Below are positions 41,850 to 61,401 of a stretch of DNA of 64,000 bases, one piece after another. Every line of letters begins with the position of its first letter. The stretch's first letter is position 1. The DNA comes from Phallus indusiatus. Its lineage: Eukaryota; Basidiomycota; Agaricomycetes; Phallales; Phallaceae. The stretch lies in the NCBI GenBank assembly GCA_027605045.1, contig JAQFWX010000031.1:124001-188000 (forward strand), written 5' to 3'. A model generated the notes under the pieces. That model did no database searches, was not told the DNA's origin, and worked only from the letters and a program-made list of their open reading frames with translations. The position numbers and the translations under genes are program-made.

Positions 41850-43262
41850 GGGGGGAGTGGTGATGGGGGTGTGACTTGTATGCGGTTCCGAGTTTGTCTT
41901 ATATACTCGCAGAAGCGCGTGTATACTTTTTGAGCCTGCGAAGGAGCGATTACTGCTCATAAGCATCAGTAACGCTTACTCCGATAGCCCTACAATTTGA
42001 TGGATTCCATAATAGATCATGTGATCAACTGGACTATGGAATGATGCACTCGTCCACTCGGAAGACCTTTTAATAATAGAATTACTTTTCGGACACGGCG
42101 AGAATAATCCTGCACGCAGGCCGAAAGCTCCAAAGGTTTAAAGAACAAGGTTTTTAAAAGTAGGTTTGGAAGCGCCATTGACTCGTCCTTCTAGCTTGTT
42201 GTCCAATTTCTAAGCCATCGTGACTGTGATAAACTGACTGCGTCGGTACGAGACTTTTATTGAGCGTTCAAATTCAAGCTTCAAATCACGTGTTCCTCAT
42301 ACGAGAGTGTGGTAAATCTGTTAATGAGTCATTGTAATTTGTTGATTCATACCTAGGTAAACCAACTTACTATGGCCAATAATGCAGGAATTCTTTTTAC
42401 TGCAGCCCGTAAAAGTACTTGAAAGTTGGGCGTGACCTGAGCTTAGATATGTTTTTAACTTTTTCCCGACCTTGTTGTTCGTGTCAGTATAGTTCCTAAT
42501 AGCCTACAAAGCAGTCAAACTCGAATATTAGATGTCCATGCTCTTGACAATCACTAACTGTCTTTTATGTTGACGAAATCATGGATCTGAGAAGACCAGA
42601 CATGTTTGTACAAGAGAAGATATTTCTCATTCATGCTATCCGTACCTCAGGATGGTGGGAAGGAGCAAAAAGGAAACGTGTTACGCGTCGTGACAGCGGG
42701 TTGTGGGGGCCTTGAGAATTTAATGCGCGAGCAACCGCGCTTATGCGGCTTACCCTGAAAAAGATATTTACAACAAGCAAACCCCCGTTTATGAGTAAGG
42801 TAAGGCTTCAAAAATGAATTCAATACAATGTACAATGTATCATAAAGACGTTTGTAGCAGCTAGCTAATATATAGTTTTTTCATATGATATCAGAGGTGA
42901 CTCTGCCACAGTACTACATACTTCGCAACTTTTGTTTTATGAAAAATTTTTTGATCATTAGAGCTATATTTCGAGCCGTACTAGTATATTTACAAGTTCT
43001 AGCGTTCTTTTATTTTAAAGCCTGCGCATTGCGACACTTAATTTGGTCAGAATATATCATTAAATCACTTCTCACTATTTTTACATCAAAATACTTTAAA
43101 CTAACTAGAGTTTGAATGATGCAAATTACACCACAGACTGAATTTATACAGCCATTATGCTGACGCGGTAAGGTTGCGCGGGCAATTCCCATAGCCCGTG
43201 TTGTGGGTGGGAGTGGGTGAGCACACCCTTCTCTGCTAAAGCCTAACGCAACGACCTTCAAA
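41850..43262. other. Intergenic with F-box promoter box at the right end
   Basis: AT-rich, about 1.4 kb, no supported gene. The last 65 bases carry the conserved upstream box described for the right-hand F-box genes. Confidence 0.5.
43198..43262 (+). promoter_or_regulatory. Conserved F-box promoter box
   Basis: GTGTTGTGGGTGGGAGTGGG followed by a TAACGCAACGAC block ending just before the ATG. Near-identical boxes occur at about 61328 and 63805, the same distance from the start codons. Confidence 0.55.
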
Positions 43263-43998
43263 ATGCTCGATCGTGTCCCATACGAAGCCTTCAGTAATAT
43301 TATCAAGTTGTCGTATCAGAGTCCCTCATCTCTCGCTGCTACATTCGACGCCGAAGAGACAAACCGACCTCCCATTGAGGCAACCCATGTTTGTCGTTCG
43401 TGGAGGACTGCACTACTGTCCGACCCAACAATGTGGACCAGCATCGAGGTGGATTTCACTGGGAAAAACCCAGACAAACTGAACGAAATGATCTCTCGGT
43501 CTGGTTCTGCCTCTTTGGACGTCTATATTGAACAAGATTCCATCGATCCGGAGGACCCGCCTCAATTTGTTGATTTGACGAATATACTTTCTCATATCCA
43601 CAGAATTCGGAACCTCTATATTCTCATCGGAGAGACACTTATCGACGTCGTCTTTCGCCTCCTCAGGCAGCCTGCCCCTAGGCTACAAAGACTCCATTTT
43701 CAACTCATCGAGCTCCCAGATGAACTCTCAGATGAGCGAGAAAACTCCGAGAAGCTTATCGGATTTTATTTCTTGGAAGTGCTCCACACCTCAAACATTT
43801 ATCACTTCAAATCTCCGCCGGTCTCAAAGAACTTCAATCCGTTTCTGTGCTCAAGGACCTGACAAGACTTCACCTTTCGTTTATTTCCAGCATGATCATT
43901 GACGGTGATATTCTCCTCATCATTCTTCGTTCGTCGCCATGCATTCAGGTTCTTGAAATGCTATGGACAGTTTTTGGTTCCGGTAATGCTGGTACTAT
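43263..43998 (+). pseudogene. F-box/LRR-like protein, copy F, 5' part (split by a 15.5-kb insertion)
   Basis: It begins MLDRVPYEAFSNIIKLSYQ with PPIEATHVCRSWRTALLSDPTMW, then LRR-like sequence. A frameshift around 43720-43740, compared with the paralog at 61402-63215, changes frame; the downstream frame (LKDLTRLHLSFISS...) continues to GGTACTAT at 43998. The gene then resumes at 59518. So one older frameshift and one large insertion disrupt it. Confidence 0.8.
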
Positions 43999-44007
43999 GT
44001 ATCACAA

Positions 44008-44056
44008 CCGCGGGGACGGGTTGGCTGGGCCCCGGCTTATGTAACCGTCCCCGCCT
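44008..44056. repeat. GC-rich hairpin at the left end of the composite element
   Basis: GCGGGGACGG and CCGTCCCCGC form a perfect 10-bp inverted repeat around a 25-nt loop, within about 10 bases of the left junction. The right end has its own 14-bp palindrome. Confidence 0.7.
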
Positions 44057-44186
44057 GGTGACCCCGTAAGCGCCCGTCTCGATCAACCGGGACCAATCCC
44101 AGCATGCCCATTGGCTGGCAGGTCGGATTGGCACCCCGCCAGAAAGGACGAAAGCGTGCCGCGATCGTGCTGGTGACCTGTGATCG
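44055..44186. repeat. Left subterminal CTGGTGACC motifs
   Basis: CTGGTGACCCCG at 44055-44066 and CTGGTGACCTGTGATCG at 44170-44186. The first recurs in direct orientation at the right end (59408-59419). The second recurs in inverted orientation at 59429-59445 with one mismatch. Likely recombinase-binding sites. Confidence 0.6.
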
Positions 44187-44488
44187 TGCGCTGCCTTTCG
44201 TACCAAATCCTGTACTTTCGTCCGTCTCTAGCTTGCTCTCAATTCGATGTTGATGTTTTTTCTCTCTTTTCTATTCTTTTCGCGTGTGAACTAGTGAAGA
44301 AACAACCAGCTATCAAATTCGACCTTGAAGCTTTGAAGTGCGGTGGCGATTTCTTTCAACGTCCGTGAGATTGACAAGAAAGAGTAGATGGAAGTATGGT
44401 TTACCCCGAAAGGGGGAAGAGAAAGTGCATCTTTGCGTCTTCTTCCATTCTTTCAACATTCGAGCTCACTGACTGTTCACATTAGAGA

Positions 44489-46274
44489 ATGGGAGTTGAG
44501 GGCTTGTGGGAGGTTAGTCGTACTTTTGCCAAGGGCTTATCTATCCGATCCTGAAATTTGCTTCATCTCAAGCATCTGCCGAAATCAGAGACGGATCAGC
44601 CGCTCCTGGACTTCACTGTGGAGCATGGCTTTTTAGCCAATGTAAATGGACAGCGCGCATATAGAATTGGGATTGATGTCTCCTTATGGTTTTACCACGC
44701 TCGTAAAATCGTGAAAAAAACAAGGAACGGGGAGTTACAGATGTTTTTCCATCGTTGTTGCAGGTAAATAAATTCTTTCATTTACTGATAAATTGTTCAT
44801 TCATTCTCAAAGATTGCTTGCTGTTCCCGTCGCACCATTGTTTGTCTTTGACGGTCCGGATCGCCCAGAAATAAAAAGAGGTAAAACCGTCAAAAAAATG
44901 AAAGACGGCCAACTCAGCGATATACGGCAGCTTATAACCGCCTTCGGGTTCGAATCCCTAACAGTGAGTAATCTTGTCATATGCGATGATGGTCTGACTG
45001 ACCTAAAATGACAATCCCTTTGAACTTTGAGGCACCGGGCGAAGCTGAGGCGACTTTATCTCAATTGAATGCAGCTGGGTTCATTGATGGTATCCTTTCT
45101 GACGACGTAGATTGCTTTATATTTGGAGCGAAAACAGTTCTACGGAGCGTTAGAAGCCAATCCAGGTCGAAATACATGGAGTCACTCGACGTTTACAGGA
45201 GCCGAAAACTTGAGGACTCGCATTTTTCACGCGATGAGCTCTTGCTGGTAGCCCTCATGCATGGCGGCGATTACGATAATGTGAGGCTACTATTACTTAT
45301 TCTGTTTTATTTCTATTCAAACTGCATATATAGGGAATCACCGGATGCGGCATTACAACGGCCGTCAATTTCTGCGAGCTTGGGTTTGGAAGACGCCTTG
45401 TGGAACATTGGAAGATTCGACTGAATTCTTTTAGTGCATGGCAGGCGTTCCTTTCCGTATGGCGAAACGAGATGAAAACGAGACTTTCGTCAAAAGCATC
45501 TGGAGACGGGCAAGTCAACCGGCAAGCTGCAGACAACCTCACAGACGAATTCCCAAAGTATGAGGTATTAGATGCATACTTGGACCCAGAAGTTCTCGAT
45601 GAATTCGAAATTCCCCATGTTTCTAAAAACCTGTGGAAAAACGAACTTGATCTATCGAAGCTAGCCATTGCTTGCCGTAACAAATTTGAGTGGAGCTCTG
45701 ATGAAATAGGTACACTCGAAACATTCAAGAGTCTAGTATGGCCAGGTGCTGTTCTGCGTCTCCTGTTAGCTCGAATGCGGACCATTGATGATGGGATAGT
45801 AAGTCTTCTATACTGCTATGTTATGTGTGTATGTTTTGCTAACAATGTATGTCATATCAGCCTGCTCCAGAGCCCTTATTCAAAGTCATGCATGGAAAGC
45901 GCCAGCCAAAAGCCAAAGCTAATTGTACTTCAATTCAGATCTCAACCACGCCGTTTGTTCAGGCCGTCAAAGACGGCCTTGCCCAACCATCTCCACTACA
46001 CGGGGACACTATCGATTTGCCATGGAGAGTCAAGAACAAAGAGCGAGTTTCTAAGGAACCCGATGAATTGGAATGTTTTTGGGTACATACTTCGGTAATT
46101 ACAGCGATCTCTGCTCAGCAAAATGATTTGAAAGGAAACATGTGTATGTCCACCTCCTCCCTTTTCTGTGTTTGTCCGCTCAAAAGGAAACCAAAGCTTT
46201 TGACAAGATTGAATATATTTCAAGTGATTCTAATTAGCTTATATACAGTGTTGAGAATAATAAATTGTTTTTGA
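44489..46274 (+). CDS. XPG/FEN1-family structure-specific nuclease (PIN-like), 6 exons
   Basis: Flap or junction endonuclease family. Exons 44489-44512, 44573-44763, 44813-44963, 45032-45280, 45334-45798 and 45861 onward join in phase. Start MGVEGLWE is the XPG N-terminal signature. RIGIDVSLWF and LFVFDGPDRPEIKRGK give the N-region acidic residues; APGEAEATLSQLN, LSDDVDCFIFG and GGDYDNGITGCGI give the I-region Glu/Asp cluster and the helix-hairpin-helix. All catalytic positions appear conserved. Similarity fades after about residue 400, and the C-terminus (after about 46150) is uncertain; it may splice onward. It resembles the expanded GEN1-like PIN proteins of mushrooms more than housekeeping FEN1. 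It lies 490 bp inside the composite element, pointing inward, so probably cargo or an accessory recombination enzyme. Confidence 0.8.
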
Positions 46275-46800
46275 ACCTTCTAAAAAATGAAACTGCGTGT
46301 GTGAGCCAAGTCTGGAAAGTCCAACGTCACTGCCACATTCGGGTTCGGATTCCACTGCATCGAGATCAGCGTTGACTGGAGTTGTATTATTTTTGTGGAA
46401 TCACTCAGCGTTGCATGAGTGATGAAAGTTGATGACGCAGACAAGGGATTTGATTGTGAAGAGCAGCAATAGCACTCAAATCAGTACCATTAACAACACC
46501 ACGTTGGTATTTAACAGTATGACAGAAATGTTTGTTGGCAATCTCTTTGGTGATACCCTCGTGCATCTACCGGTATACTTGAGTCCATGTGAGCTGACGG
46601 GGGTTCTTGCGTTGCAAGAATAGAGATATTGTTTTTGAGGTACTCAACCGGAAGTTATGATGAGCCTTAATTTCTGATGAAGTGCTGAACTTGCTGTCTC
46701 CATGAATGAAGGGTTTAGTTTACCTTTGGAGAAGATTCTGTAGCTGGAAAAAGAATCGAGTTCGAGCTTGATGCTGCAGGACACGATGATGCCAAGTCAA
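46275..46800. other. Uncertain region downstream of the nuclease
   Basis: A 64-codon frame at 46429-46623 and a coding-looking frame near 46725-46850 (GEDSVAGKRIEFELDAAG, then ending in the repeat unit) might be later exons of the nuclease or a decayed gene. I could not join them by splice sites. Confidence 0.3.
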
Positions 46801-46807
46801 GCTTAGC

Positions 46808-47160
46808 CATTGAAGATGAACGCTTGAACGCAGAGCAAAGGTCAGCCGATGAGTTGTTAATACATGAAATATTACTTACCCATCATGATAAAACTCAACA
46901 AGCAGGCTACTAATATGCCACTAACTTCGTCATTGAAGATGAACGCTTGAACGCAGAGCGAAGGTCAGCCGACGAGTTATCAATACATGAAATATTACTT
47001 ACCCATAAAACTCAACAAGCGGATATGCTACTAACTTTGTCATTGAAGATGAACGCTTGAACGCAGAGCAAAGGTCAGCCGATGAGTTGTTAATACATGG
47101 AATATTACTTACCCATAAAACTCAACAAGCGGAGGGCTACTGATATGCTACTAACTTTGT
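46808..47160. repeat. Three tandem minisatellite units of 110-123 bp
   Basis: Units start at 46808, 46931 and 47041, each beginning CATTGAAGATGAACGCTTGA and ending ACTAACTT(C/T)GT. They differ by small indels and substitutions. The first unit reads as IEDERLNAEQRSADELLIHE but later units shift frame, so a coding segment seems to have been duplicated and then decayed. Confidence 0.8.
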
Positions 47161-47219
47161 AGCTGAAGTAAGAGCCACGCTGAACATCCTTCTCGGACAA
47201 AGACCGGGGAGATGGGCGA

Positions 47220-48110
47220 GGAAGTAGAGTTTATCAGTGTTTGCTACAGCAATTGATTGTATTGTTTCCCTACCTAGCCCTGGCAATATCAGAAGGCTTG
47301 GTAGCATCGGATGGTATCAAACAATCGATTCCTGGTGTGTCGCGCTTATGACTGGACTTGAAAATGTGTTCGTCAAATCTACCATGTTCGGTGACCAATA
47401 CATACATGGGGGATGTGTTGCGAAATCCTGGAGCTGATCTACCAGGGATGAAGTTACTGATGACACCGTTCTGTTGAGATGGTAATTTCAGTTGAAGGTT
47501 TCCGACACCTAGAGGCATGTCAATACCCCAGTCTGGTCTTCTGTTGTTTTGATAAGTACCGCAGGCCACTCAGCGAATTGCTGAGAAGGAATATGGGGTG
47601 TGATAACTGAGCCAGGCGAAGAGGGTGTTTGTAAAGAGACGGTCCCATGCGGCATCTGCTTCCAGTGTATTAGTGTGCTGATCCTAGCTACAGGTCTAGA
47701 ATTAGGAGTAAACAATTCCATACTTCGACCTCCTGGATCTGTCTAACACGATAGCCTGCGAGTTATTACGAACATTGCCTATCGAAGATTCATATCTCCG
47801 TTAATTACAACGGGAACCGCAGCCGCATAGAGCGACCTCTGAATTGAGGAAGTGAATCAGAATGCTGCACGGCAAACGAGTCTAGAGCTGGAGACGGTTT
47901 CAAATGCTTCTCATGAGCTGGGGTAATGGAACTGAAGTTATAAATCAGACAACATCCGACATTGAGAGCAAATCTTTCAAAGCGGCTTCTGCACCTTGTA
48001 CCTAGATTAGTAATTAATTTGACTTCGGCTATTGCGTTGGGGACTTTAGATTTGACGGCGTCAAGATAATAAAGGGCTATTTGCAAGGCTGTCTATTACC
48101 CTTTGAATGG
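47220..48110 (-). pseudogene. Possible decayed spliced gene in the element interior
   Basis: Several minus-strand frames have coding character: MELFTPNSRPVARISTLIHW near 47720, EKHLKPSPALDSFAVQHS near 47900 and LQIALYYLDAVKSKVPNAIA near 48060. The last faintly resembles a helix of PHO80-type cyclins. Splice junctions could not be placed without internal stops. Function not assigned; it may be a cargo relic. Confidence 0.25.
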
Positions 48111-49288
48111 CGCAGGTTTTCATGGACGAAAGCGTGCAAAGGTATCCAACAAAAAGGTCATGTCTGTAGACTAACATTAAGCAAGAACCGGGTGTGACAT
48201 GTGACATGTGACATAGGTGTTACTGATACAAACGACACCTGGTCTTTATCCACTGCGCGCGACTTGCTTCACCCTATCCCGGATCCAACCTAGTTCTACC
48301 TCTTGTTGTTGCGCTCTGGGATCAGGCGGGACAACAGGAAGGGTCCAGCTCAAGTTGGATTATGGTTAGGTTGCTTCCGGGCCGTTTTTTACTATAACGC
48401 CAACACTGTTTCGGAAGCACCATAAGGACTGCGACAGCTTGTGTTACTTCAAATGTCGCGCAACGGTTGGGTAGGTTTGAATTCTACTTTTATTCCGTCT
48501 TGAAAGCTCATCTCTTTATTGGAATAGTTCTGTCTTTTATCTTACCTGAGACGCCATCACCGCCGCCTTCCAAGAAAAGGGAGACCCGCTACTTTGTGAC
48601 GCTTCCGGAAGATTTTATCTCAAGCCAGTAAGTCCAAAACAACTTCCATTTCGTGTTTAAGGCTAACGTCAATGGTTTTGATGGTTTTCAGCTCCTTCCG
48701 TTGGTTTATTTGGGCTGTCGCTATGCACTCGCCCAATTTTGATACTGGGAGGCTGCGTGCACACATTCCAAGACCCACGGGTAAACCTGCAGTAAGTTTT
48801 CATTTGAAATATCTTCTTTGGGGCTTAAACTGACTGGCTGAATGGCCGTCATCATGTTCCGCACCCCATCCTGGAGTTCTGGGAGACTTTCTTTGTCCCC
48901 AGTTCCGGTGCTACAAGTATCCAGGCGGCGTACTGTATAAGGCACGTTTTTGAACGTGTTTTTGGTGCGTATTCTCTTACATTTGTCTGTTTAATCTATT
49001 GACGAAGGTCTGCGCTAGGATGATATTGATTTTTCGGTGTCTTTTTCGTGCAGACAGGTTTGCCTTTATTATAAGGACCTGGGCCTCTCACAGTAAGTTT
49101 TTCATTTTTTCCACGAAGGGTTTTTTTTCTGAACTTTTCATCTTTCAGAGTCTTTTTCATTTTTTTTAGTTCCCATCAGAACAGCATGCGCCTGCAGCAT
49201 ACAGAAGACCAGGTAATTCGTTATTAGCTACTAATTTATGTACATACAATTAAAAGGGATTAGTTCAAATATTATAATAATTGTTTGT
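48111..49288 (+). other. Mostly noncoding, with a possible small spliced gene
   Basis: A plus-strand chain from about 48560 (ETRYFVTLPEDFISS, donor GTAAGT at about 48630, then SFRWFIWAVAMHSPNFDTG to a second GTAAGT near 48792) has good donor and acceptor motifs but no clear start or end. T-rich tracts occur near 49105-49165. Low support. Confidence 0.3.
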
Positions 49289-50563
49289 TCAACTGAAATA
49301 ATTTTCCGAATCTTCTACTATCTTCATAAACGTAGTAGTGTTTAACTGCCGCATGAATGTTCCGATGACCTTGTTTGTGTTAGAATAGCGCTCAGTGAGA
49401 AACTTCAGTGCTCGCGGAATTGACCAGGAAGCGCGTTTGCCAAGTGTTTCGATTAATTCGATAGTCCTCTTCCGCCTAGTGAATTCGTTTTTCCTGGATT
49501 TTTCGTTTCGATGCCAAGCCGGGTTGACTGACCAACGCTCCTTTATTTCTCGAAACGGCAGGTATCCATTCAGGCCTTCCGTGTATTCGCTCCAGAGCTC
49601 TTCAAACGTTGTCACCTTTTGAAAATCATAATGCGGAACTAGGTGGTTCTGTTCCCAATCCCAGGTATGAGTCAACAGTTTATTGATGTTGTAATTCTTC
49701 GTTAACTCAATCCAATTTGACTCCCAAAGTGCCTGAGGATGACGTTGAGAAAATGACCCGAGTCGTGGAAGTGGGATTGAATTCATAGGGGAGGCGATGA
49801 AACTTCCCTGTAGAAAAAGGTCATCAAATCATGTAAATAATAAATAAAAAGAGAATTTGATGAACCTCGAGTGCCTCTGTGACGGAATTATAAGATTCCG
49901 TCAGGGACCCTATCACATTATCAGGACGAGGGATAACAGTCACTGTACCCTCATCCCCAAAGTGATCAATAATCTCAGTGCTAATTTTCTGAGAGTGATA
50001 TGAGACGGGGATCGGGATAATAGGAGCAGTGAGCATTGAACGAATAGGTTCTATATGAATTGTAGCCTAGCCGCTAGCGATCAAAGATAGTATGGGTGCT
50101 TACGTGTTGACTTCCTGTAGCCAGAGTTTTCATCGTTACCGCTTATATTTTCATTTGGGTTTGAGTGGAGGGGTACTGAAGAATACGTCAAAAAGTAGAA
50201 TAGATATGTTAATCAAAACATACAAGCTTTCTTGGAATTAGTTTTGCGACGTTTGTTCGGAAAAATTTCATGTTGCAATTCCATGACACCTCGTATTTGA
50301 CTGAGCTCCGCAGAGATCATTTTCAGATCTTGAGCTTGCTGATTTTCCTTTTCTCGTTGTTTAGACAAAAATAGCTGAATTGAACCTTGAAATGTATCGG
50401 CTATATGCGCTGGCAGGTTTTGCAATGCGAGCCGGGCGCTTTCTTCGCTTTCTTCAAGCAAGGCAGAGGAGTTGATCGCAAAGTCAAGGAAAACCCGACT
50501 ATTAAAGGGAGGACAGGTGTAAATATAACTTTCAGGAACCTTCTCATACAGAACTGCCAGATC
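49289..50563 (-). pseudogene. Crypton-type tyrosine recombinase, 3' part with GCR1_C-like DNA-binding domain
   Basis: Continuation of the gene starting at 58781 after gypsy element 2. Exon pieces 50224-50558, 50104-50175, 49866-50050 and 49289-49807 join in phase. A coiled-coil-like segment (LSKQREKENQQAQDLKMISA) is followed by a basic KRRKTNSKK patch and a C-terminal domain with TFEELWSEYTEGLNGY, WHRNEKSRKNEFTRRKRTIE and ALKFLTERY. That pattern matches the GCR1_C DNA-binding domain typical of Crypton recombinases. It ends at the TAA at 49289. The break is the target duplication AGATC of the gypsy insertion. Confidence 0.75.
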
Positions 50564-50955
50564 TGTCAGGGTACGCTACCGCCGTCTCTCATTTTCTTAT
50601 TTATTATCATCGGCATCGTTTCTTTTCTATTTTATTTATCATTTCCGTATTTTACTTTCACTCTCCGTTTCCTTGTTCTGTCTCTATTTCACTTTCTCTA
50701 CTCGCGCGTCGCGCCAGTACCCGGCGTGATGCCCGTGACATCACATCGCTTAGGTTCGGCTTGGGCGTCTGGCACTTAGCTGTGTCAGGGCCGCACGCCG
50801 CGTCGTCGTTTTATGTATATAGTCGCTGTACCTAGAGTGAGGGTCCCTAAGCTTGTTCTCTTAGGATCCCCTCCCTCTAGGTGAGTAGTTAGTTTCCCTT
50901 CCAATATATTCTCTTAGGATCCCCTCCCTCTAGCTTGAGCTGAGTAGCCCTAACA
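50564..50955 (+). repeat. 5' LTR of gypsy element 2
   Basis: TGTCAGG...CCTAACA, followed by the same AGAACAAGCTT self-priming 11-mer as element 1. Its GC-rich block near 50703-50720 differs from the 3' LTR. Confidence 0.95.
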
Positions 50956-51116
50956 GTAGAACAAGCTTTCTACTCGCAGACTGGTCGTTTCTATCGACAC
51001 TCGTTATCGAAAAATCGCTCGACACCGACTATCGCAGTGTCGTATTTTCCCTCGAGTCCCGTCTATAATCGACCCTCTGCTCCGTCCTAAAACCCCTTTT
51101 CCTTTCTCTCTCTCTC

Positions 51117-52181
51117 ATGGATTCCTCACCCCCACCCTCTGTACCCCAAATCGTCACCCTCGAAGATGTGGCGACTATTATCATGCGGCAATTCGCGGAA
51201 ATGGATGCCCGCATGGCAAGACAGGAATCCCAGGCCTCACAGATGATTGAGGTGCTACGGAGCATCCGAGACGCGGCTAGAGCTGCTCCAACCCAAAACA
51301 CCCCTGTTGACGACGCGTCCTCACCTGGACAACCACCGGCTCCTGAGCATCAAGCCAGTTCACGCTCTTCCCGAAATACCCGACCTGCTGTACCTCCTTC
51401 ATTCGACGGAGATCGCTCCAAGGGTCGTGCCTTCTGGAACACCGTCGAGTTTTACATGAGTATATGCAGTCGCGATTTCGAGACTGACGAACTCAAGATC
51501 GGCTGGGCAATGTCGTACATGAATGAAGGCCGTGCCCTTACCTTCAGCGAATCTATGCTGAAAAAGTATCAAAGAGGAGAGAAGCCCTTCGCCGACTGGA
51601 ATGCCTTTCGGGAACGATTCAAGGCTGATTTCTTTCCACAATCCGAGCAAGAGGATGCCATCAACACCCTCTATTCCAACCGCTACGTCCAAGGCAACAG
51701 GACTGTAGAAGAGTATGTGGACGCCTTCCGCGTGCTCATTGAGCACGCTGGCTTTACGGAAGGACTCGCCATCAACACATACTTTCGTAACGGTTTAGAC
51801 CCGACAATTGCATCTCTGGTAGCGACGATGAAGGACCGACCCGCACTTCACGACTACGAAGGCTGGATCAGGCAGGCACGCATGTTTGACATGGACAGGC
51901 GTGCCAACGAGGCTTTCACTGCTGCTCGTCGCCGACTCGTAGGCTCTGGAACGGTTCAGACAAATTCCGCGATTGTCCCCATTAATCGACCTCGTCCCAA
52001 CCCTTTTCCGTCATATCAGACCCTCCAGATCCAGAGGAGGCCCCCTGCCCATTCCTATCAAGCCCCTTCTTACCCACCTCCCAGACCAGCACCTCAAGTC
52101 GTGCCCGCGTTGCCTCCCAGACCTGCGGTTTCTGCTCCTACACCCCAGGTTAGACATGACCCGATGGACGTTGACGCTTAG
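51117..52181 (+). pseudogene. gag: Truncated Gag of gypsy element 2, 354 aa, lacks the zinc knuckle
   Basis: Identical in plan to the Gag of element 1 through residue 354, then stops at TAG. Compared with element 1, 13 bases are missing at about 52176, between two copies of GACGCT, as expected from slippage or recombination between short direct repeats. The CCHC knuckle and the gag-pol overlap follow in another frame, so nucleocapsid function and normal Gag-Pol synthesis should be lost. Such a copy would need Gag from another element to move. Confidence 0.9.
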
Positions 52182-52395
52182 GCCCAGAATCAACCAGATG
52201 TCATCGTTGTGGAGCAACAGGCCATTGGGCTCGCGAATGCCCTCGCGCATACGACATTCGGTATCTCCAGCCCGACGAATTGGACGACAATATCGCACAC
52301 CTGTTGGCCCAGAAAGATGCGTTAGAAGCCCAGGCGCGTGGCGACTCTGCTCCGACCCAAGGCGAGACTGTAGCTGCAACAGAGGTAGAGGATTT

Positions 52396-55300
52396 TCAAA
52401 ACGGCGACGAGTGATAGATGCACCCTCGTTGCCGACATCTAATAGATTCGACATTTTGTACATAGATCGCGAACAAAATGACACTTCTGATTCGAATCTA
52501 ACTACCCCTGCTGCATCCCCTGATAAACCCAAAGAATCGCCTCCACCCGCTACACGCTCTGTTTCCATTCCATGTATGCTGTCGCCTTCTCAACGTCGTG
52601 CATTGCCGAAAGAATACCGACTCGCAGCTACTGCAGGCACACAGAAACTGGAGATTCCAGTAGAGCTACAGAGTGTTGACACCGGGGCCCTATTGCACAG
52701 CAAGGCCATGTTGGACACTGGCGCTAGTGGTATGTTTCTCGATCGCAACTTTGTCGAGAAACATCGGCTTCCCTCCGTACGTCTTGCTAAACCAATTCCC
52801 GTGTTTAACGTCGACGGTACACCCAATCATGCTGGCTCTATCACCCACGTCGTCGACCTGGTCGTTCGCTTCCGGGATCACTCTGAACGCACCTTGTTCG
52901 CTGTTACCTCGCTCAAGTATCCGGTCTTGTTTGGGCTGCCGTGGTTCAAGGCCCATAATCCCGTCATAGATTACACAACTGGTCAAGTAGAGTTCATGCG
53001 CTGCAGTCCTAGTTGTCGATCCTGCGCTCCACGCTGGCCAGCGGGTAAACTCTCTAAGCGCGCGTTCCAGCAGATCCGACGTGCACCTCTGCCTGAACTG
53101 GACGACACGGAGACCCACGATCCTGACATACCGGACCTGGTCGACGTCGAGTCTGAGATTGAAGAAGGTGATCGACTATTCGCGATATCAATGTTGCCCG
53201 ACGAGCCCGACGCACACCGCATATATGCCACCGAGACCATCTCCCAGCGACTGGCCCAGGCCCATGCCAACAACACGGACGCACCAGCCCCCAAAGGCTT
53301 TCGAGATATTGTGCCAGAGATGTTCCACGATTTTGCCGACATCTTCTCGAAGGAGTCGTTCGACTCGTTGCCGCAATCGAAGAAGTGGGATCACCCGATA
53401 GAGCTTGTGCCAGGTTCTGAGCCCAAGTCGTGCAAGATCTACCCGTTGTCGCCCAACGAACAAGCCGAGTTAGACGCGTTTTTGGAAGAAAACCTTGCGT
53501 CTGGACGAATCCGACCCTCCAAGTCGCCCATGGCATCCCCGGTATTCTTCATTAAGAAGAAGGATGGCTCTCTTCGTCTCATCCAGGACTATCGGGCATT
53601 GAATGCTATGACGATTAAGAACCGTTACCCGCTGCCCCTGATCTCAGAGCTCATCAACAAGTTGCAAGGTGCCCGGTACTTTACCAAGCTGGACGTGCGC
53701 TGGGGTTACAACAATGTGCGGATAAAGGAAGGAGACGAGTGGAAGGCTGCTTTCCGCACCAACCGCGGCCTTTTCGAACCTCTGGTAATGTTCTTTGGTC
53801 TCACGAATAGCCCTGCGACCTTCCAGACAATGATGAACGAGATCTTCGAGGACATGATCTCGGAAGGTGTCGTTGCTGTCTATATCGACGACATTCTCAT
53901 CTACACTCGGGATCGGGAACAGCATGACCAGGTAACACGACGCGTTCTCGAACGTCTCCGGGAGCACAAGCTGTATCTCAAGGCAGAGAAGTGCGAGTTC
54001 TGTCGGACTAAGATCGAATACTTAGGTGTCGTGATTTCCGAGAACACCGTAGAGATGGACCCCGCGAAAGTCTCGGGTGTCAGAGATTGGCCTGTCCCGA
54101 AGAATGTCACCGAGGTTCAGTCCTTCTTGGGCTTCGCCAACTTCTACCGTCGGTTTATCAAGGATTTCGCGCGTATTGCCAATCCCATGTTCGGGTTAAC
54201 CAAAAAGGACACTCCCTTCGTCTGGTCCGACACCTGTCAGCATGCTTTCGATACTCTGAAGTCGTCAATCACCTCTGCTCCCATTCTCCTCATTCCTAAC
54301 CCTGCTAATCCTTACAGAGTCGAAGCAGACAGTTCCGACTTTGCAACAGGCGCGGTCCTTTCACAGCTGTCGAACGAGGACGGTAAATGGCACCCAGTTG
54401 CATTCTTCTCGAAGGCCCTCAGCCCTGTCGAACGCAACTATGAGATCCACGACAAGGAGATGCTCGCTATTATACGATCTTTAGAGGAATGGCGACACTT
54501 TCTCGAAGGCGCGTCTCACCCTATCGACATACGGACTGATCACAAGAATCTCGAGTACTTCATGTCCGCGCGTAACCTCAATCGTCGTCAAGCTAGATGG
54601 TCGGTGTATCTCTCACGATTTGACTTTACTCTGCAGCATATACCGGGTAAGTCGATGGGCAAACCTGACGGTCTATCTCGTCGGCCAGATCATGGCTCGG
54701 GAAAGGACGACAATCGTGGAGTCACCTTAATCCGACCCGAAATGTTTGCAATCAACGCTCTGCAAACGTTCCGTCTTAAGGGGGAGGAGGAGGATCTTCT
54801 ACGCCAGATTCGCAAGGCCAATCGGGAAGGCAAGGTCGAAGATAGCGTTTCCAAAGCCGTTGCAACACTTCGCGCACTGGGTGGTCGTTCAGCTCACTCG
54901 TCGGAATGGTTTGAAGACCAGGACCTCCTCTACTATCGCGGCAAGGTTTACGTGCCAAATGTGGACGAATTGCGTCGGAAAATCCTTTCCAGACACCACG
55001 ACACCAAACTCGGCGGTCACCCGGGTCGTTTCAAGACCCTCGAGCTCGTTTCACGCACCTTTTGGTGGCCAGGTGTCTCTAGGTATGTACAACGCTATGT
55101 AGAGGCCTGCGACATGTGTCTACGTACGAAACCGTCTCGCCATGCTCCCTATGGCCTTCTCCGACCCACAGAAGTGCCAAGTCGACCTTGGGAACACATC
55201 TCAGTCGACTTCATCGTGGAACTGCCAGAATCTAACGGTTTTGACGCGATCCTCTCTGTCGTCGACTCTCTCACCAAACGGGTTCATTTCGTGCCGACAT

Positions 55301-56355
55301 TTACGACACTTGACGCGACAGGTCTAGCCCGTCTGTACCTTCAACATGTCTGGAAGCTCCATGGTCTCCCCATGAAGGTGATCTCTGACAGGGGCCCCCA
55401 GTTCGCGTCCCGCTTCACACAGGAGCTTTCTAGGCTCCTGGGCATACGGCTTGCACCCTCTACGGCATATCATCCTCAAACCGATGGTCAAACAGAGCGC
55501 GTCAATGCAGAAGTCGAGCAGTATCTTCGACTTTTCACCTCAGAACGACAGGACGACTGGGACCAGCTGCTGCCCATGGCTGAGTTCGCATACAACAACC
55601 ATGTACACTCAGCCACGCGTTCGACACCATTTGAACTCGACACTGGACGACATCCTCGTATGGGATTCGAACCGCTGGTTGCCGACTCGAAGATCGAATC
55701 TGTCAACGAGTTCAAGACGCGCATGGAGTCGACAATAGAGGAAGCCAAGGCCGCTATAGCCAGGTCGAAGGACGAGATGGCCAAGTACTACGATCGGAAA
55801 CATATCCCGGCACCTGAATACAAGGTTGGCGACAAGGTATACCTTGATTCGAGCGACATCCGTACCACCAGGCCCTCCGCCAAGTTATCGCATCGGTACT
55901 TAGGGCCTTTTCCGATAGTCAGCAAGGTCGGGTCACACGCATACAAGCTGCGTTTACCACTGTCGATGTCAAGGCTTCACCCAGTGTTCCACGTCGGGAA
56001 GTTACGTCCAAAGGTTGAAGACACAATCCCGGGCCGTCGCGTTAAGGCTCCACCACCTCCTGAGGTCAGAGACGATGGTGAACACTATGTCGTGGAACGG
56101 ATTTTAGATAGTCGTGTCTTCCGGAGACGACTCGAGTACAAGGTGCGTTGGGAAGGCTATGGTCCTGAGCATGACCAGTGGGAACCCGAGTCGAATATTG
56201 CAGCCCCGGATCTCATTAAGGATTTCCACCGCGAACATCCGAGTGCGCCACGCTCGATAAATGGCCTTCTTTTCCATCGTCGTCCTCGGTTTGATTTTTC
56301 TAAGCTACAGGCGTCATTAGTCGAAGCTACAGGCGTCGGGACGCCGCCTCGTTGA
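52396..56355 (+). CDS. pol: Pol polyprotein of gypsy element 2: PR-RT-RNaseH-IN-chromodomain
   Basis: Open along the full length with the same motifs as element 1: LDTGAS near 52711, YIDD near 53881-53892, integrase SDRGPQF near 55382, and a chromodomain near 56085-56200. The frame is open upstream to 51973, but that part is an alternative reading of gag and probably not translated as Pol. Because of the 13-bp gag deletion, Pol is now in the +1 frame relative to gag, so the normal -1 shift cannot produce it. Confidence 0.88.
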   Translation, partial: SKRRRVIDAPSLPTSNRFDILYIDREQNDTSDSNLTTPAASPDKPKESPPPATRSVSIPCMLSPSQRRALPKEYRLAATAGTQKLEIPVELQSVDTGALLHSKAMLDTGASGMFLDRNFVEKHRLPSVRLAKPIPVFNVDGTPNHAGSITHVVDLVVRFRDHSERTLFAVTSLKYPVLFGLPWFKAHNPVIDYTTGQVEFMRCSPSCRSCAPRWPAGKLSKRAFQQIRRAPLPELDDTETHDPDIPDLVDVESEIEEGDRLFAISMLPDEPDAHRIYATETISQRLAQAHANNTDAPAPKGFRDIVPEMFHDFADIFSKESFDSLPQSKKWDHPIELVPGSEPKSCKIYPLSPNEQAELDAFLEENLASGRIRPSKSPMASPVFFIKKKDGSLRLIQDYRALNAMTIKNRYPLPLISELINKLQGARYFTKLDVRWGYNNVRIKEGDEWKAAFRTNRGLFEPLVMFFGLTNSPATFQTMMNEIFEDMISEGVVAVYIDDILIYTRDREQHDQVTRRVLERLREHKLYLKAEKCEFCRTKIEYLGVVISENTVEMDPAKVSGVRDWPVPKNVTEVQSFLGFANFYRRFIKDFARIANPMFGLTKKDTPFVWSDTCQHAFDTLKSSITSAPILLIPNPANPYRVEADSSDFATGAVLSQLSNEDGKWHPVAFFSKALSPVERNYEIHDKEMLAIIRSLEEWRHFLEGASHPIDIRTDHKNLEYFMSARNLNRRQARWSVYLSRFDFTLQHIPGKSMGKPDGLSRRPDHGSGKDDNRGVTLIRPEMFAINALQTFRLKGEEEDLLRQIRKANREGKVEDSVSKAVATLRALGGRSAHSSEWFEDQDLLYYRGKVYVPNVDELRRKILSRHHDTKLGGHPGRFKTLELVSRTFWWPGVSRYVQRYVEACDMCLRTKPSRHAPYGLLRPTEVPSRPWEHISVDFIVELPESNGFDAILSVVDSLTKRVHFVPTFTTLDATGLARLYLQHVWKLHGLPMKVISDRGPQFASRFTQELSRLLGIRLAPSTAYHPQTDGQTERVNAEVEQYLRLFTSERQDDWDQLLPMAEFAYNNHVHSATRSTPFELDTGRHPRMGFEPLVADSKIESVNEFKTRMESTIEEAKAAIARSKDEMAKYYDRKHIPAPEYKVGDKVYLDSSDIRTTRPSAKLSHRYLGPFPIVSKVGSHAYKLRLPLSMSRLHPVFHVGKLRPKVEDTIPGRRVKAPPPPEVRDDGEHYVVERILDSRVFRRRLEYKVRWEGYGPEHDQWEPESNIAAPDLIKDFHREHPSAPRSINGLLFHRRPRFDFSKLQASLVEATGVGTPPR

Positions 56356-56366
56356 AGGGGGGATGG

Positions 56367-56762
56367 TGTCAGGGTACGCTACCGCCGTCTCTCATTTTCT
56401 TATTTATTATCATCGGCATCGTTTCTTTTCTATTTTATTTATCATTTCCGTATTTTACTTTCACTCTCCGTTTCCTTGTTCTGTCTCTATTTCACTTTCT
56501 CTACTCGCGCGCGTCGCGCGCTCGTACCCGGCGTGATGCCCGTGACATCACATCGCTTAGGTTCGGCTTGGGCGTCTGGCACTTAGCTGTGTCAGGGCCG
56601 CACGCCGCGTCGTCGTTTTATGTATATAGTCGCTGTACCTAGAGTGAGGGTCCCTAAGCTTGTTCTCTTAGGATCCCCTCCCTCTAGGTGAGTAGTTAGT
56701 TTCCCTTCCAATATATTCTCTTAGGATCCCCTCCCTCTAGCTTGAGCTGAGTAGCCCTAACA
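56367..56762 (+). repeat. 3' LTR of gypsy element 2
   Basis: 396 bp, preceded by a purine tract GAAGGGGGGATGG and followed by AGATC. Confidence 0.95.
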
Positions 56763-58781
56763 AGATCCTGAACTAGAACCCGGCGCAGATCTTTGAGAAG
56801 GTTCAAAAATCCTTCTAGTGCCAAATCCATTGCATGACGGTTATCACCGGCACGGGCTGCCAATGTTGCGAGTTCGCTTTCAACCCAGGGGAATAGCTGA
56901 GACGTGATCTCAGACGGAGGTTCTAGATCAATTAGATTGATCATTAGGATATTCAAAATAATGAAAACAATAAGCATACCAAGTGAGTCGCGTGCACAAA
57001 AATGTGTCTCCGGTTTTCGGGCATTATACATTGCGGCACCAAGGAGGGCCTCAATTGGCAATTGTCGGTCGTAAACAGAATTGTAGGAATCGCCACAACT
57101 CCAGCCCATTGCTCTGGTCGCTTCTTTGTCTGCGCCATGGTTTCGCATGACAAATGCTGCGGTGTAGCGCTGTGCATGTGTGACCTTCGACAAAACAGCA
57201 CCGGCTCTCTGGTGAAGCTTGCTTATGCGGGTAGCGTGATCTACATGAATATCAGAACATGCATCACATCTTCAAATATAAAAAAATTACTCTGGTATGT
57301 CATTGGTGACGATCTTGTGTCACCAGGGAATACTTTATATGTACACCATTCACGGCGGCCATAAATCCCATACCCTTCTGCCTGAGCGGCAGCCGAAAAA
57401 TCAGAGCTCCAATTATAGGGCTGTTCCTCATCAACAAGATGAAAGCGAACAAAGAAATAAAGGGCCAAAGCCCCAATAGAGCACAGTTCGACAAAGCGAT
57501 GGCGTATCGCTCCTTGCTCCTCAACTTTCCCGGATTGATTATGCTTCGCATTATCACAAAGGATCTTGAGACACTACATAAATTTCAGCAATAATATTAC
57601 TTCACTCAATCTAAATTATTTACCATAATTTCCTTGTCAAGCGAAGTTTCAAGAACCTTGACATTCTGTGAGAAAAGGTCTGATAACACAAGGTTGCGTA
57701 TGTTATCTCCGCGAAAGGCAGTACTCAGCGGCAGCAAGTACAGCGCACGATCACGCACGGCCAGGGCAAAATTCTTCCGCGTTTCTCCTATGATCAGACA
57801 TGACAGGGATATCTCAAACATCTGCTCGCGAGTGTATGTGTCTGCAAGATAACCCAAGCATAAGCACATTAAAGGACTGAAAAATGTACATAAATCATAC
57901 CTGCAGATGTCCCCACTGCTTTTCTAACCTGAGATAAGCGAACTCGAAATGGCTCATTATGCTTAACAGCGAATTCAATTCTCTTAATCCGATCATCTGA
58001 TCGAAGGTTGACAGTAGCATCTTTGTCGTCTGGATAAAGGTGGGCATTGCGACTGCGCTCCCGTTCAAGAGCGCTGATTGTATTCTGGATAGTTGCCCAG
58101 CCGACAGTCGTGCCTGGTATCACTGTCCCTGAAGCAGAACGCTAAATCAAAATATAGTATGTTCTCAATACAATACAGAATAGGCGAACGTACCCTTGGT
58201 CGCTTCAAAGTATAGTCTAAAAATAACACTACCTTTGCCGGAGTGATAGGTTTTGGTGGGATGCACTTTCGATTCGGATTTTGTTGTTTGAGAGCAAACT
58301 CCCTTTTTTCCCACCAGTCCGTGTAATCTTTTATATAAAGCGCATACTGACGGTGGGTGGTCGTGTCTGCTAAACACCTCTTTTGGACTTGATCGCGAAT
58401 CTCGTATGACAACATGCTGATTTCCTGGACCTCTGTGTCATCTCGGGCCATTTCTACATGCGGGGCTTCATGCGGGTTCAGCTCCAAAAGCTGCTTGTTT
58501 GGGGGCAACGTATTTAATGGGAATGGTACGGCTGTCGCAGAAAGACTCGGACAGGCTGTTTGAAGTTCACTCATTATCTCGAGTGTTCGGTTTTGGGGGA
58601 AAGATATCTGAGAGATGGGGAATTGGTGGGGAATTGGGAGGGTTTTATCTTCAACGGACGGCATAGGCGTCTCGTTATTCGGACTTGGACATAGGCCAAG
58701 AGTGGTCGCGAGGGGACCCTCCGGATAGTTAGGATCTGCAGCTTGTTTGACGCGTCGTGTAGTTTTTTTCGCTCCACGCAT
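56763..58781 (-). pseudogene. Crypton-type tyrosine recombinase, 5' part with catalytic domain
   Basis: It starts MRGAKKTTRRVKQ at 58781. Exons 58194-58781, 57901-58141, 57624-57841, 57291-57573, 56980-57240 and 56763-56922 join in phase. With the 3' part the gene encodes 953 codons. The N-terminal part has a SAM-like core-binding segment (RQYALYIKDYTDWWEKR, PAKVVLFLDYTLKRPR). Catalytic region: FRGDNIRNLVLSDLF (box I Arg), IRHRFVELCSIGALALYFF, KVTHAQRYTAAFVMRNHGA (HxxR) and GWSCGDSYNSVYDRQLP (nucleophilic Tyr). R-HxxR-Y are all present. Only the gypsy insertion in exon 6 disrupts it; no other stop or frameshift seen. The promoter faces the right end of the composite element, about 730 bp away. 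Confidence 0.8.
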
Positions 58782-59513
58782 CCTGGACGTCTGGTGTCAG
58801 GTAAAATGGATGAAGGAAGAGAGAGAAACTGAAGAATAAATTTGCTTGCTTGTGACAATATTTACCCAAGTGAGACTATCAAGTGAGACACGGGCACGGG
58901 CGGCGACTTTTTTCTGTGTTCAGTTCTATTTTTGAAGCAACGCGAATATTGTCTTGCGCGAACAGGAAAATAATTTCAAATAGATGGCATTGAAATTAGG
59001 CTTATTTTACAATGTAATGGCGGCGTGAATAATGTATCTAAAAAAAGAATATCCTCTGGAAACGAGACTTTAAATCAGTCTTGTCGGATCCGGGAGAGAT
59101 AGAGAATATGACGGAGCTCACCTTTATGTACTCCTTTCATCATCCCATCCTTCGTGATTTGTGTTTGTTCAGCGGCAGTGCAATGAGACGAGTGTCCACG
59201 CCCTCGCGCGACTCTGAATATTGGAGTTGGCTGGTGTCAGGAGGAGGAGGACGAAAAGGATGAGACGCGACGCCAGTTGATGTAATCAACAGTTTTCGTC
59301 CCATCACTCGGCATTTAGTGGTTTTGGGGGACGGCGCGCCGTCACGTTCGGGGCGCTAAGGCACGACGGGCATCTCTGCCTAGCTCATGATTAACGGATG
59401 TATTCAACTGGTGACCCCGGTAGACCTCCGATCGCAGGTCACCAGAGGTCACCAGAGGTCATCGGCGGGCAAGGAAGGCGTGGGACGTGCTGACAAACAG
59501 TATGTACTATGCT
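58782..59513. other. Right end of the composite element: promoter and subterminal sites
   Basis: Noncoding. It contains the 14-bp palindrome GACGGCGCGCCGTC at 59330-59343; CTGGTGACCCCG at 59408-59419; CGATCGCAGGTCACCAG at 59429-59445, which extends into tandem 10-bp AGGTCACCAG repeats to about 59461; and CAGTATGTACTATGCT next to the junction. It probably holds the recombinase promoter and recombination sites. Confidence 0.55.
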
Positions 59514-59517
59514 CTAT

Positions 59518-60427
59518 ACAATCACAATCTAGTCATCGCATCACCATGCCATCTCTACGCAAACTCGTGCTAACAGGCGTCTGTGGAATTGATAACTTGA
59601 ATTTCATTCTGGGACATTTAGAGTTCGATGAAGTTGATTTTGATATTACCTGTGACGATTTTTACTCCAAAATCTCCGACTCAGAACTCTTATTACACTT
59701 CCTCGCGACTCAGCGACGGTTCTCACTTCTTTCGGTCGTCCCCTACTTTTGCTCGTACTCAGGTGCGGATACGGCTATCGAATTCTCCGAGAAGATGGTT
59801 ATGGGGTTCCCATTCCATTCTCGTCCTAAAGACAGTGCAGTATTCAGAATACTGTACAATGACTACGCGCCCTTGGACACCTTGTCCGGTTCGCTCCGAA
59901 AATTCAAAATTATTACGCACATGTACTTGGAAAATGTTTCGCCAGAAACTACGGGCCTTGGAAGTATTTTTCTTCTACTAGATAATCTACAACTTTTGTG
60001 CGTCAATCATTCCCATTGGAATGAATATATCAATGATGACGGACTAAACTTCGGTATAAATTTGACTTGGACAATGTACTTGGATGTCCTGGTGCCTCAG
60101 GTGCAGGAATCGAACTCTCAGGTGGAAGCAGCCTCGGATTCAGAATTAGAAAGCGAAGTGGCCCCTGGATCGGACGTCGAAACCACCCGAGTACAATTCC
60201 CGTGCCCCTCTTTGCAGATTTTGGACCTATTTCTCATTGGCCCTTTTGAGGAATTTTATATTCGAAAGCTCATCCGATGTCACGAAACTCGAGGGCAAAT
60301 GGGACACCCGTTCAAGTCAATAACTCTCTATTCCCGATCTCCAACCTTCGTCGAAACCGCTAGAACATGGCTGCGGACTCATGAACCTGGATGTTTGCAA
60401 GTCCACGTTGAACTGTGGAGTAACTGA
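59518..60427 (+). pseudogene. F-box/LRR-like protein, copy F, 3' part
   Basis: It resumes exactly where 43998 stops relative to the paralog (HRITMPSLRKLVLTGVCGIDNLNFILGHL). It continues through LSDITH-like sequence (here IITHMYLENVS), the acidic linker, PCPSLQILDLFL and the conserved end GHPFKSITLYSRSPTFVETARTWLR...VHVELW to a stop at 60427. The Met in the element at 59387 is not the true start. Open frame; promoterless unless driven from the element. Confidence 0.78.
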
Positions 60428-61401
60428 AATCGTGTCACGCGAAAGGTATGAATTAAATTTCATCTGAAGCATTTTTGTTCGCTAACAAATTTACTATATT
60501 GTGGATGGAAAAATAATACAATAGCATCCTCGTCCTTTACATTCCAAAAGCGTATCTGAAATCCATGCAGGTGTTGTTGCGTGAGTTAGTGAGCGACCGG
60601 TATTTGCACTATATGTTTAGCTGTGTTGTTTGGTGCCATTCTAGCATTTTGATTTTCAAATCCAAATTCCCTTTCCATATGCATTTGAATTTCCTTTTCT
60701 AACTCATGTTTTTCATTCCTTTAAATCACAATTTAGCAACAGTTCCATTTTCCTGGAACATTCTTCTTGAAAACTGTTATCAAAATTTTCATTTAGCCTT
60801 ACAAAATAAACCTCTGTTTCTCTTCCAGTTTTCCTCTTGAGCACATGGCATTCGCTAATTCCCCTTCTCTTCGCTCCTGAGGGCCGAGGCGCACGTATCA
60901 TCGTGCAAGGGAATCGGACCTACTAGTGCCGCCGTCTTTACAAACTGGAAGCAACAATAATGTGAACAGTTTCTGAGATAGAAAAAATCATGTCATGGGA
61001 AAAATGACAATGTCTAAACTTGAATGATGTTGAATCTGGCTATTGACTAACGGTTATAACGCACCTTTCATTTTCAGATACTTTTGCTCCATTAGGAACC
61101 AATCAATAAATCAAATATAACCTAAGCGGGAAAACGGGAGTATGGATGGTTCTGGCGATCAAATGACATAGTTCAAAAATGAGGCTAATGTATAGAAAGG
61201 ATTCCACTAACTCAAGTAAACCATTAACGGTGCAATTAGCCGCGAAAGTTCGTACTCAATCGTCTCAAATTTTCAAAGCGCTCTGGCCATGATGATGGGT
61301 GGCTCGCTCCGGGGCGCGTCGCTAGGCGTGTTGTGGGTGGCAGTGGGTGAGTGCTCCCATTCGCAAACTTCCACGCTAACGTAACGCAACGACGCTGAAA
61401 A
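60428..61401. other. Intergenic, F-box 3' flank repeat and promoter box
   Basis: GTTCCATTTTCCTGGAAC at 60742-60759 and the following about 150 bp repeat the flank at 37026-37190. The promoter box GTGTTGTGGGTGGCAGTGGG lies at about 61328-61350, with a GCAACGAC block before the ATG at 61402. No gene. Confidence 0.55.
61328..61401 (+). promoter_or_regulatory. Conserved F-box promoter box
   Basis: GTTGTGGGTGGCAGTGGGTG plus a downstream TAACGCAACGACG block just before the start codon; same arrangement at 43198 and 63805. Confidence 0.55.

Follow-up and report, generated by a model that had tools for sequence, protein, structure and literature searches.

A candidate two-gene CryptonF-type element with an XPG-family nuclease in Phallus indusiatus

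Cryptons of the CryptonF type have been described with direct repeats of 4 or 6 bp, and a CryptonF with two genes, CryptonF-2_PS of Phytophthora sojae, carries a C48 peptidase gene besides its recombinase (Kojima and Jurka 2011, PMC3212892). No report of a Crypton with an XPG-family nuclease was found in the titles and abstract openings of the open-licence literature, preprints excluded, and the accessible part of PMC10799480 mentions none of crypton, XPG, GCR1 and DUF3435. Here we describe such a combination in a 64,000-nucleotide stretch of Phallus indusiatus DNA (the window; C131:124001-188000 in a 67.2-Mb assembly of 206 contigs; positions are in window numbering unless a contig is named). 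An inserted unit at 43999-59513 holds a tyrosine recombinase gene and an XPG-family nuclease gene. We consider it probable (about 0.75), judging from sequence, that this unit represents a basidiomycete DNA transposon of the CryptonF type with two genes, in which the nuclease would be a conserved partner.

An inserted unit with two convergent genes

The element is laid out with GGTGACC repeats at its left end, a GEN1-like nuclease gene on the plus strand, a variable middle, a recombinase gene with a GCR1_C tail on the minus strand, and GGTGACC repeats at its right end. The window copy is broken by a Ty3/gypsy element. The features that bear on the pairing of the two genes are the following:

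43999..59513, no strand: whole inserted unit including the nested gypsy (frame restored on removal, paralogs insert-free; 9.3 kb without the gypsy)
43995..43998, no strand: left flanking CTAT direct repeat, from the sequence
59514..59517, no strand: right flanking CTAT direct repeat, from the sequence
44489..46136, plus strand: XPG-family (GEN1-like) nuclease, exons 44489-44512, 44573-44763, 44813-44963, 45032-45280, 45334-45798 and 45861-~46136
45029..45271, plus strand: XPG_I region of the nuclease (PF00867, E 3.7e-16)
56763..58781, minus strand: N-terminal and catalytic part of the recombinase, exons 58781-58194, 58141-57901, 57841-57624, 57573-57291, 57240-56980 and 56922 to the gypsy
49289..50563, minus strand: C-terminal part of the recombinase (tail and GCR1_C exons), beyond the gypsy
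49394..49618, minus strand: GCR1_C domain (PF12550, E 5.1e-8, 39.1 bits against a cut-off of 23)

The nuclease has at least six exons from splicing and translation, with an approximate 3' end, and the last two exon boundaries of the catalytic part of the recombinase were set by eye. The two genes face each other, so that both are transcribed inward, as the initial annotation of the window had proposed. It had also placed the recombinase at the right edge, which holds for the start of the gene; the GCR1_C domain lies past the gypsy, which separates it from the catalytic part.

When the flanks of the unit are fused on a single CTAT, one continuous tblastn match spans the junction, with 66% identity to the intact paralog at 61611-63215. 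This bears out the earlier proposal that an F-box gene is split by 43999-59513 and has its frame restored through one CTAT, with coordinates that proved correct to within a few bases. The proposal had relied on one uninterrupted paralog near 62320; the insert is in fact absent at the equivalent position in all four F-box paralogs, two of them downstream on C131 and two on C173.

The GCR1_C profile has at least four matches in the genome, namely in the window and on contigs C151, C164 and C198. On C151 the recombinase and the nuclease again form a convergent pair, with gene order and orientation as in the window, in a unit of 12.5 kb (C151:1799256-1811768):

C151:1800202 to ~1803247, plus strand: recombinase, an open spliced frame of 889 residues with introns picked by hand
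C151:1811229 to 1809746, minus strand: nuclease, from tblastn

The flank on the recombinase side of this unit matches C151:1788412-1788511 and C133:289551-289645, and the flank on the nuclease side (from 1811769) matches C151:1788509-1789751 and C133:288309-289548, along 1.2 kb with an overall identity of 91% that drops to a gapped 73% in the first 150 bases. At both sites the two flanks sit side by side without an insert, the one match ending at 1788511 and the other beginning at 1788509 on C151, and the two lying 2 bp apart in C133. Because the flanks are contiguous at two paralogous sites, one insertion explains the C151 unit, and it is most likely that some 12.5 kb with both genes were inserted in a single event, to which nested insertions may have been added later. 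The unit is bordered by a direct repeat no longer than 5 bp (TATAT, or AT). Comparison of the sites shows, for two separate places, that the unit with both genes is missing from paralogous sites. The empty sites had been checked within the genome for several insertions, and nuclease-free intact copies had been sought there as well; the contiguous C151 flanks answer the first point, and as to the second, the other catalytically intact recombinase, that of C151, is accompanied by the nuclease in an identical position and direction.

These observations bear directly on the idea that the two genes are chance neighbours, i.e. that a single-gene Crypton came to lie beside an XPG gene unconnected with it, several events having split the F-box gene. 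The window unit does include repeats besides the nested gypsy, and stretches of its middle turn up at other loci that lack the two genes. Against this stands the recurrence of the convergent pair at C151, with flanks contiguous at two paralogous sites. The genes that flank the units on C151 and C131 also differ (F-box in the window, short-chain-dehydrogenase-like, identified by eye, on C151), and a back-of-envelope estimate for two nuclease loci both falling within 12 kb of one of three recombinase loci in 67.2 Mb gives a few in a million. Chance adjacency was rejected on account of the C151 pair and its contiguous flanks, and we regard it as extremely improbable.

The recombinase and the nuclease as a pair

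The initial annotation had recognised a Crypton-type recombinase with R, HxxR, Y and a GCR1_C-like tail. The catalytic motifs AFRGDNIRN, THAQR and YDR are present in the recombinases of both the window and C151, confirming R, HAQR and Y. In Pfam, the window recombinase passes for Phage_integrase (29.3 bits, cut-off 27.1) and NDC10_II (44.4 bits, cut-off 26.3) as well as for the GCR1_C domain listed above. In C151 NDC10_II (79.3 bits) and GCR1_C (42.5 bits, cut-off 23) pass, and Phage_integrase scores 16.9, under its cut-off of 27.1. Both recombinases thus carry the domain set of CryptonF as predicted from sequence, i.e. R, HxxR and Y followed by a C-terminal GCR1_C. Among the best 8000 candidates scored, the recombinase has at least five protein relatives, from Ramaria rubella, Hypsizygus marmoreus and one source without a name; the best named relatives of both genes come from basidiomycetes (Ramaria, Hypsizygus and Clathrus).

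The assignment of the left-edge gene to the XPG family also held, since XPG_I and XPG_N both lie above their cut-offs (24.9 and 22 bits), with 63.8 and 35.3 bits in the window and 74.8 and 34.8 bits in C151. The nearest entries in the PDB, aligned over residues 1-352 with XPG_N and XPG_I, are 6grb (E 5.7e-39) and 5cnq (E 9.1e-39), both titled 'nuclease-like protein' in the PDB listing, which we take to be Chaetomium GEN1. At least 22 protein relatives were found among the best 8000 candidates scored. The GEN1 C-terminal domain (PF18380; the domain name was confirmed on Mycena filopes P0007) is listed for 16 of these 22, which is 16 of the 18 relatives from outside Clathrus.

The two genes have diverged to a similar extent between the units. 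The nucleases of the window and C151 are 59.8% identical over 348 codons, with differences of 0.305, 0.207 and 0.592 at codon positions 1, 2 and 3, and the recombinases are 66.9% identical over 459 codons, with differences of 0.233, 0.176 and 0.597. The codon comparison shows that both genes retain a coding pattern of change, mostly at third positions. There are 22 nuclease matches in the genome, five to the window gene, four on C151 and 13 elsewhere (C140, C6, C45, C120, C123, C13 and C132); these 13 are without a GCR1_C among the matches listed, by which measure C131 and C151 are the only contigs with a nuclease locus near a GCR1_C.

In a tree of 27 nuclease sequences the two element nucleases and four short proteins of Clathrus columnatus form one group (support 100/100). 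The other 21 sequences, all outside this group, are the loci on C140, C45 and C123 and 18 database proteins; those on C13, C132, C6 and C120 and the second copy on C140 were left out. By eye, Clacol_003391 and the element nuclease have a C-terminal stretch in common. A second, strongly diverged XPG-family group was also observed (C45:675539-676270, C120:413220-413951 and C123:238987-239489), of which the C45 and C123 members sit on a long branch.

The nuclease could also be a passenger that plays no part in transposition, acquired when a Crypton on one occasion took up a GEN1-like gene of the host. Host GEN1-like genes are indeed present in the genome (C140/C6), extra genes can be carried, as the CryptonF with a C48 peptidase in P. 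sojae illustrates (PMC3212892), and a recombinase locus without nuclease exists (C164/C198). The similar divergence and the third-position bias of both genes, however, indicate that the nuclease was maintained under constraint, and no other gene common to the two units was found; the nuclease-free recombinase, moreover, has lost catalytic residues. Mere cargo is in our estimate somewhat unlikely. The initial annotation had left the choice between partner and cargo open in proposing a relative of Cryptons. That proposal is supported, and 'partner' fits better than 'cargo', because no other common gene was found and the changes in the nuclease keep pace with those in the recombinase.

The nuclease-free locus is represented by two alleles (C164 ~129966-132976 and C198 ~164765-167750). 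In 40 kb of sequence at this locus no nuclease was found (tblastn, E up to 0.05, and XPG_I profile), and the ends of the window element have no match there. GCR1_C is retained, and in both alleles HxxR has become QxxR and the nucleophile Y has become C; with these catalytic residues lost, the locus was rejected as a working single-gene Crypton. The alleles differ at 31, 35 and 63 of ~840 sites each at codon positions 1, 2 and 3, from which it follows that constraint is weak. The locus does not count as a working single-gene element, and it does not support the pairing of recombinase and nuclease either; the gene may be decaying, or has possibly been retained by the host, as with yeast Ndc10 or Gcr1.

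Ends, insertion site and middle region

The remaining features of the element are its terminal regions, the nested gypsy and the middle:

43999..44190, no strand: left terminal region, with TATCACAA near the end and GGTGACC at 44057 and 44172 (likeness to C151 by alignment and eye)
59399..59513, no strand: right terminal region, ending in ACTATGCT, with GGTGACC/GGTCACC at 59410, 59437 and 59447
50564..56762, plus strand: nested Ty3/gypsy, interrupting a recombinase exon (long terminal repeats 50564-50955 and 56367-56762; target duplication AGATC)
46140..49288, no strand: middle region, without a gene common with C151, containing a 110-bp tandem repeat and a short interspersed repeat

The right end at 59399-59470 matches C151 at 77.6% over 76 columns (E 0.001), and the left ends of the two units have TATCACAA and a GACGGG stretch in common, by eye. 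Alignments of the whole ends, some flank included, give 75 of 124 and 89 of 159 identical positions between the window and C151. GGTGAC/GTCACC is enriched in the terminal 2 x 250 bp of both units, with five copies in the window and four in C151 against shuffle means of 0.41 and 0.33 (0/1000 as high in each case). As judged by eye, the first and last 12 bases of the window element are not inverse to each other, in agreement with the lack of terminal inverted repeats in CryptonF elements. The left-end DNA of the window matched only itself in the genome. Solo right ends were observed on C199 and C81 (~102 bp each, beside a protein kinase gene) and on C111 (58 bp); those of 102 or 58 bp lie on the 5' side of the protein kinase gene (L009 4993-5091, L010 5093-5191 and L011 5017-5074), the Pkinase domain of which was identified by a Pfam scan on C199. 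No match was obtained in Rfam, and 43 pattern matches in viral contigs included no relatives.

As to the insertion repeat, CTAT is present on both sides of the window unit, as initially annotated. The C151 copy suggests that the element's own end may be ..CTCT, so that the true direct repeat may be AT only (2 to 5 bp) and the CTAT repeat may be partly coincidental. The 8-bp GTACTATG, found at both window ends, was rejected as insertion repeat, since joining there breaks the F-box frame (by hand) and the relic right ends extend beyond it. The fused F-box gene has an in-frame 6-bp tandem duplication, ACAATC, which is absent from the paralogs, and a separate frameshift near 43740 in its left half (43200-43998) is independent of the insertion. 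The assembly looks two-haplotype, with C173 and C131 87-98% identical across several long stretches. Between these haplotypes the number of copies in the tandem F-box array varies, and compared with window 42707-61316 the other haplotype, C173, lacks the whole element-bearing F-box copy.

The long terminal repeats of the gypsy (392 and 396 bp) differ by three mismatches and four gap columns, and the gypsy is flanked by a 5-bp AGATC duplication. With the gypsy delimited and removed, the window element measures 9.3 kb, the length that had been estimated. In the middle region a 110-bp unit is repeated 2.8 times at 46808-47133, the translations repeating a similar peptide. A repeat of ~125 bp at ~48257-48381, with at least 34 similar matches over many contigs (best 40 of 70 candidates), looks like a short interspersed element. 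Pieces of window 46344-48170 recur, mostly collinear, at C156:52616-53718, C135:438115-439220 and C124:75412-77096, and likewise at C198:56069-57709 and C162:1002275-1002623, with no nuclease or GCR1_C at these loci among the matches listed; they could be remnants of the element, or else a repeat nested in it. The search for a gene common to both middles besides the nuclease gave a best frame match of E 0.004 only.

An edge recombinase, a variable middle and short direct repeats are what one would also expect of a basidiomycete counterpart of the Starships, a cargo vehicle with a Crypton-type recombinase as its captain. Among Pfam families up to E = 1, however, DUF3435 is not listed for either the window or the C151 recombinase, none of the ten frames scanned in the middle reached a Pfam cut-off, and the units, at 9.3 and 12.5 kb, are smaller than the 15 to 700 kb quoted for Starships in the accessible part of PMC12134995. 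Membership of the Starships was rejected, as neither a DUF3435 captain nor variable multi-gene cargo was found, and a counterpart of this kind appears very unlikely. The comparison with Starships drawn in the initial annotation survives as an analogy, together with its remark that the recombinase family of Starships is a different one.

Several points weigh against the reading as a two-gene transposon with the nuclease as partner. Among the GCR1_C matches listed, units with intact catalytic residues number two in the assembly, and a recombinase relative without nuclease exists, though catalytically changed. At C151 the last nuclease exon is not cleanly joined, the empty sites are paralogous and not allelic, the recombinase-side flank match covers just 95-100 bp (83-85%), and at C133:196023 and C151:1839972 a match to 45-55 bp of that flank lacks the other flank beside it. 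The exact length of the direct repeat in the window is blurred by the ACAATC duplication and by AT-rich borders. The left ends are weakly similar, as blastn of the window against C151 gave nothing better than E 9, and the excess of GGTGAC/GTCACC at the ends concerns a motif that was picked after being seen. The middles of the two units differ, and since parts of the window middle recur without the two genes, nested insertions may make up a portion of the 9.3 kb. As to the nuclease, RAD2, XPG and several FEN1 chains outrank human GEN1 (E 6.5e-14) in the PDB comparison, and PF18380 is not listed for either element nuclease, both models of which are possibly incomplete at the 3' end. Finally, the window nuclease groups with Clacol_003391 (98/91) and not with C151, which implies that the nuclease lineages are old.

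Possible mechanism and comparison with known systems

Tyrosine recombinases act through Holliday junctions. In line with the biology of these enzymes, the recombinase would bind the end repeats and the element would be excised as a circle through a Holliday junction; the circle would then enter a short matching site, for instance AT or CTAT, by recombination. More tentatively, the nuclease might serve as a dedicated partner by cutting junctions or flaps that arise as intermediates in excision, integration or repair of the donor site. A role of this kind, in which transposition intermediates would be resolved or repaired, is the most economical one, because recombinases use Holliday junctions and the family of the nuclease cuts junctions or flaps.

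A bolder possibility is a basidiomycete Crypton lineage with a built-in resolvase, in which the recombinase would exchange one strand and the GEN1-like nuclease, instead of a second exchange, would resolve the junction. We know of no recombinase-plus-resolvase mode of this kind in eukaryotes, and we consider it doubtful. If true, it could explain how Cryptons gain copies: how they multiply is unclear, because excision and reintegration by tyrosine recombinases are conservative. With an element that retains a GEN1-like nuclease of the XPG family, the resolution step becomes open to direct testing, and two defined units with ends and empty sites can be used for tracing. A two-gene unit would furthermore extend the fungal Cryptons past the recombinase alone, and would provide a source for the short XPG proteins of the stinkhorn relative C. 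columnatus, which form a separate clade.

In so far as the accessible part of PMC3212892 describes them, CryptonF elements (Crypton-Cn1 and its relatives) share with the present units an R-H-R-Y recombinase with GCR1_C, a low copy number and apparently short direct repeats; unlike them, the present units have a second conserved gene, that of the XPG-family nuclease, sizes of 9.3 and 12.5 kb, and GGTGACC near both ends. The combination of a CryptonF recombinase with the gene of a second protein is also seen in CryptonF-2_PS, in which, by contrast, the second gene encodes an Ulp1-type peptidase and the host is an oomycete (PMC3212892). With the Starships of the Pezizomycotina, as portrayed in the accessible part of PMC12134995, the element has in common a tyrosine recombinase at the edge and apparently short direct repeats, whereas Starships have a DUF3435 captain, a larger size and many cargo genes. 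Finally, the nuclease resembles the Holliday junction resolvases of the GEN1/Yen1 type in its core of XPG_N and XPG_I, and its mushroom relatives carry GEN1_C; unlike those resolvases, the element nucleases are without GEN1_C, form a separate clade with the four short C. columnatus proteins, and lie inside a putative transposon.

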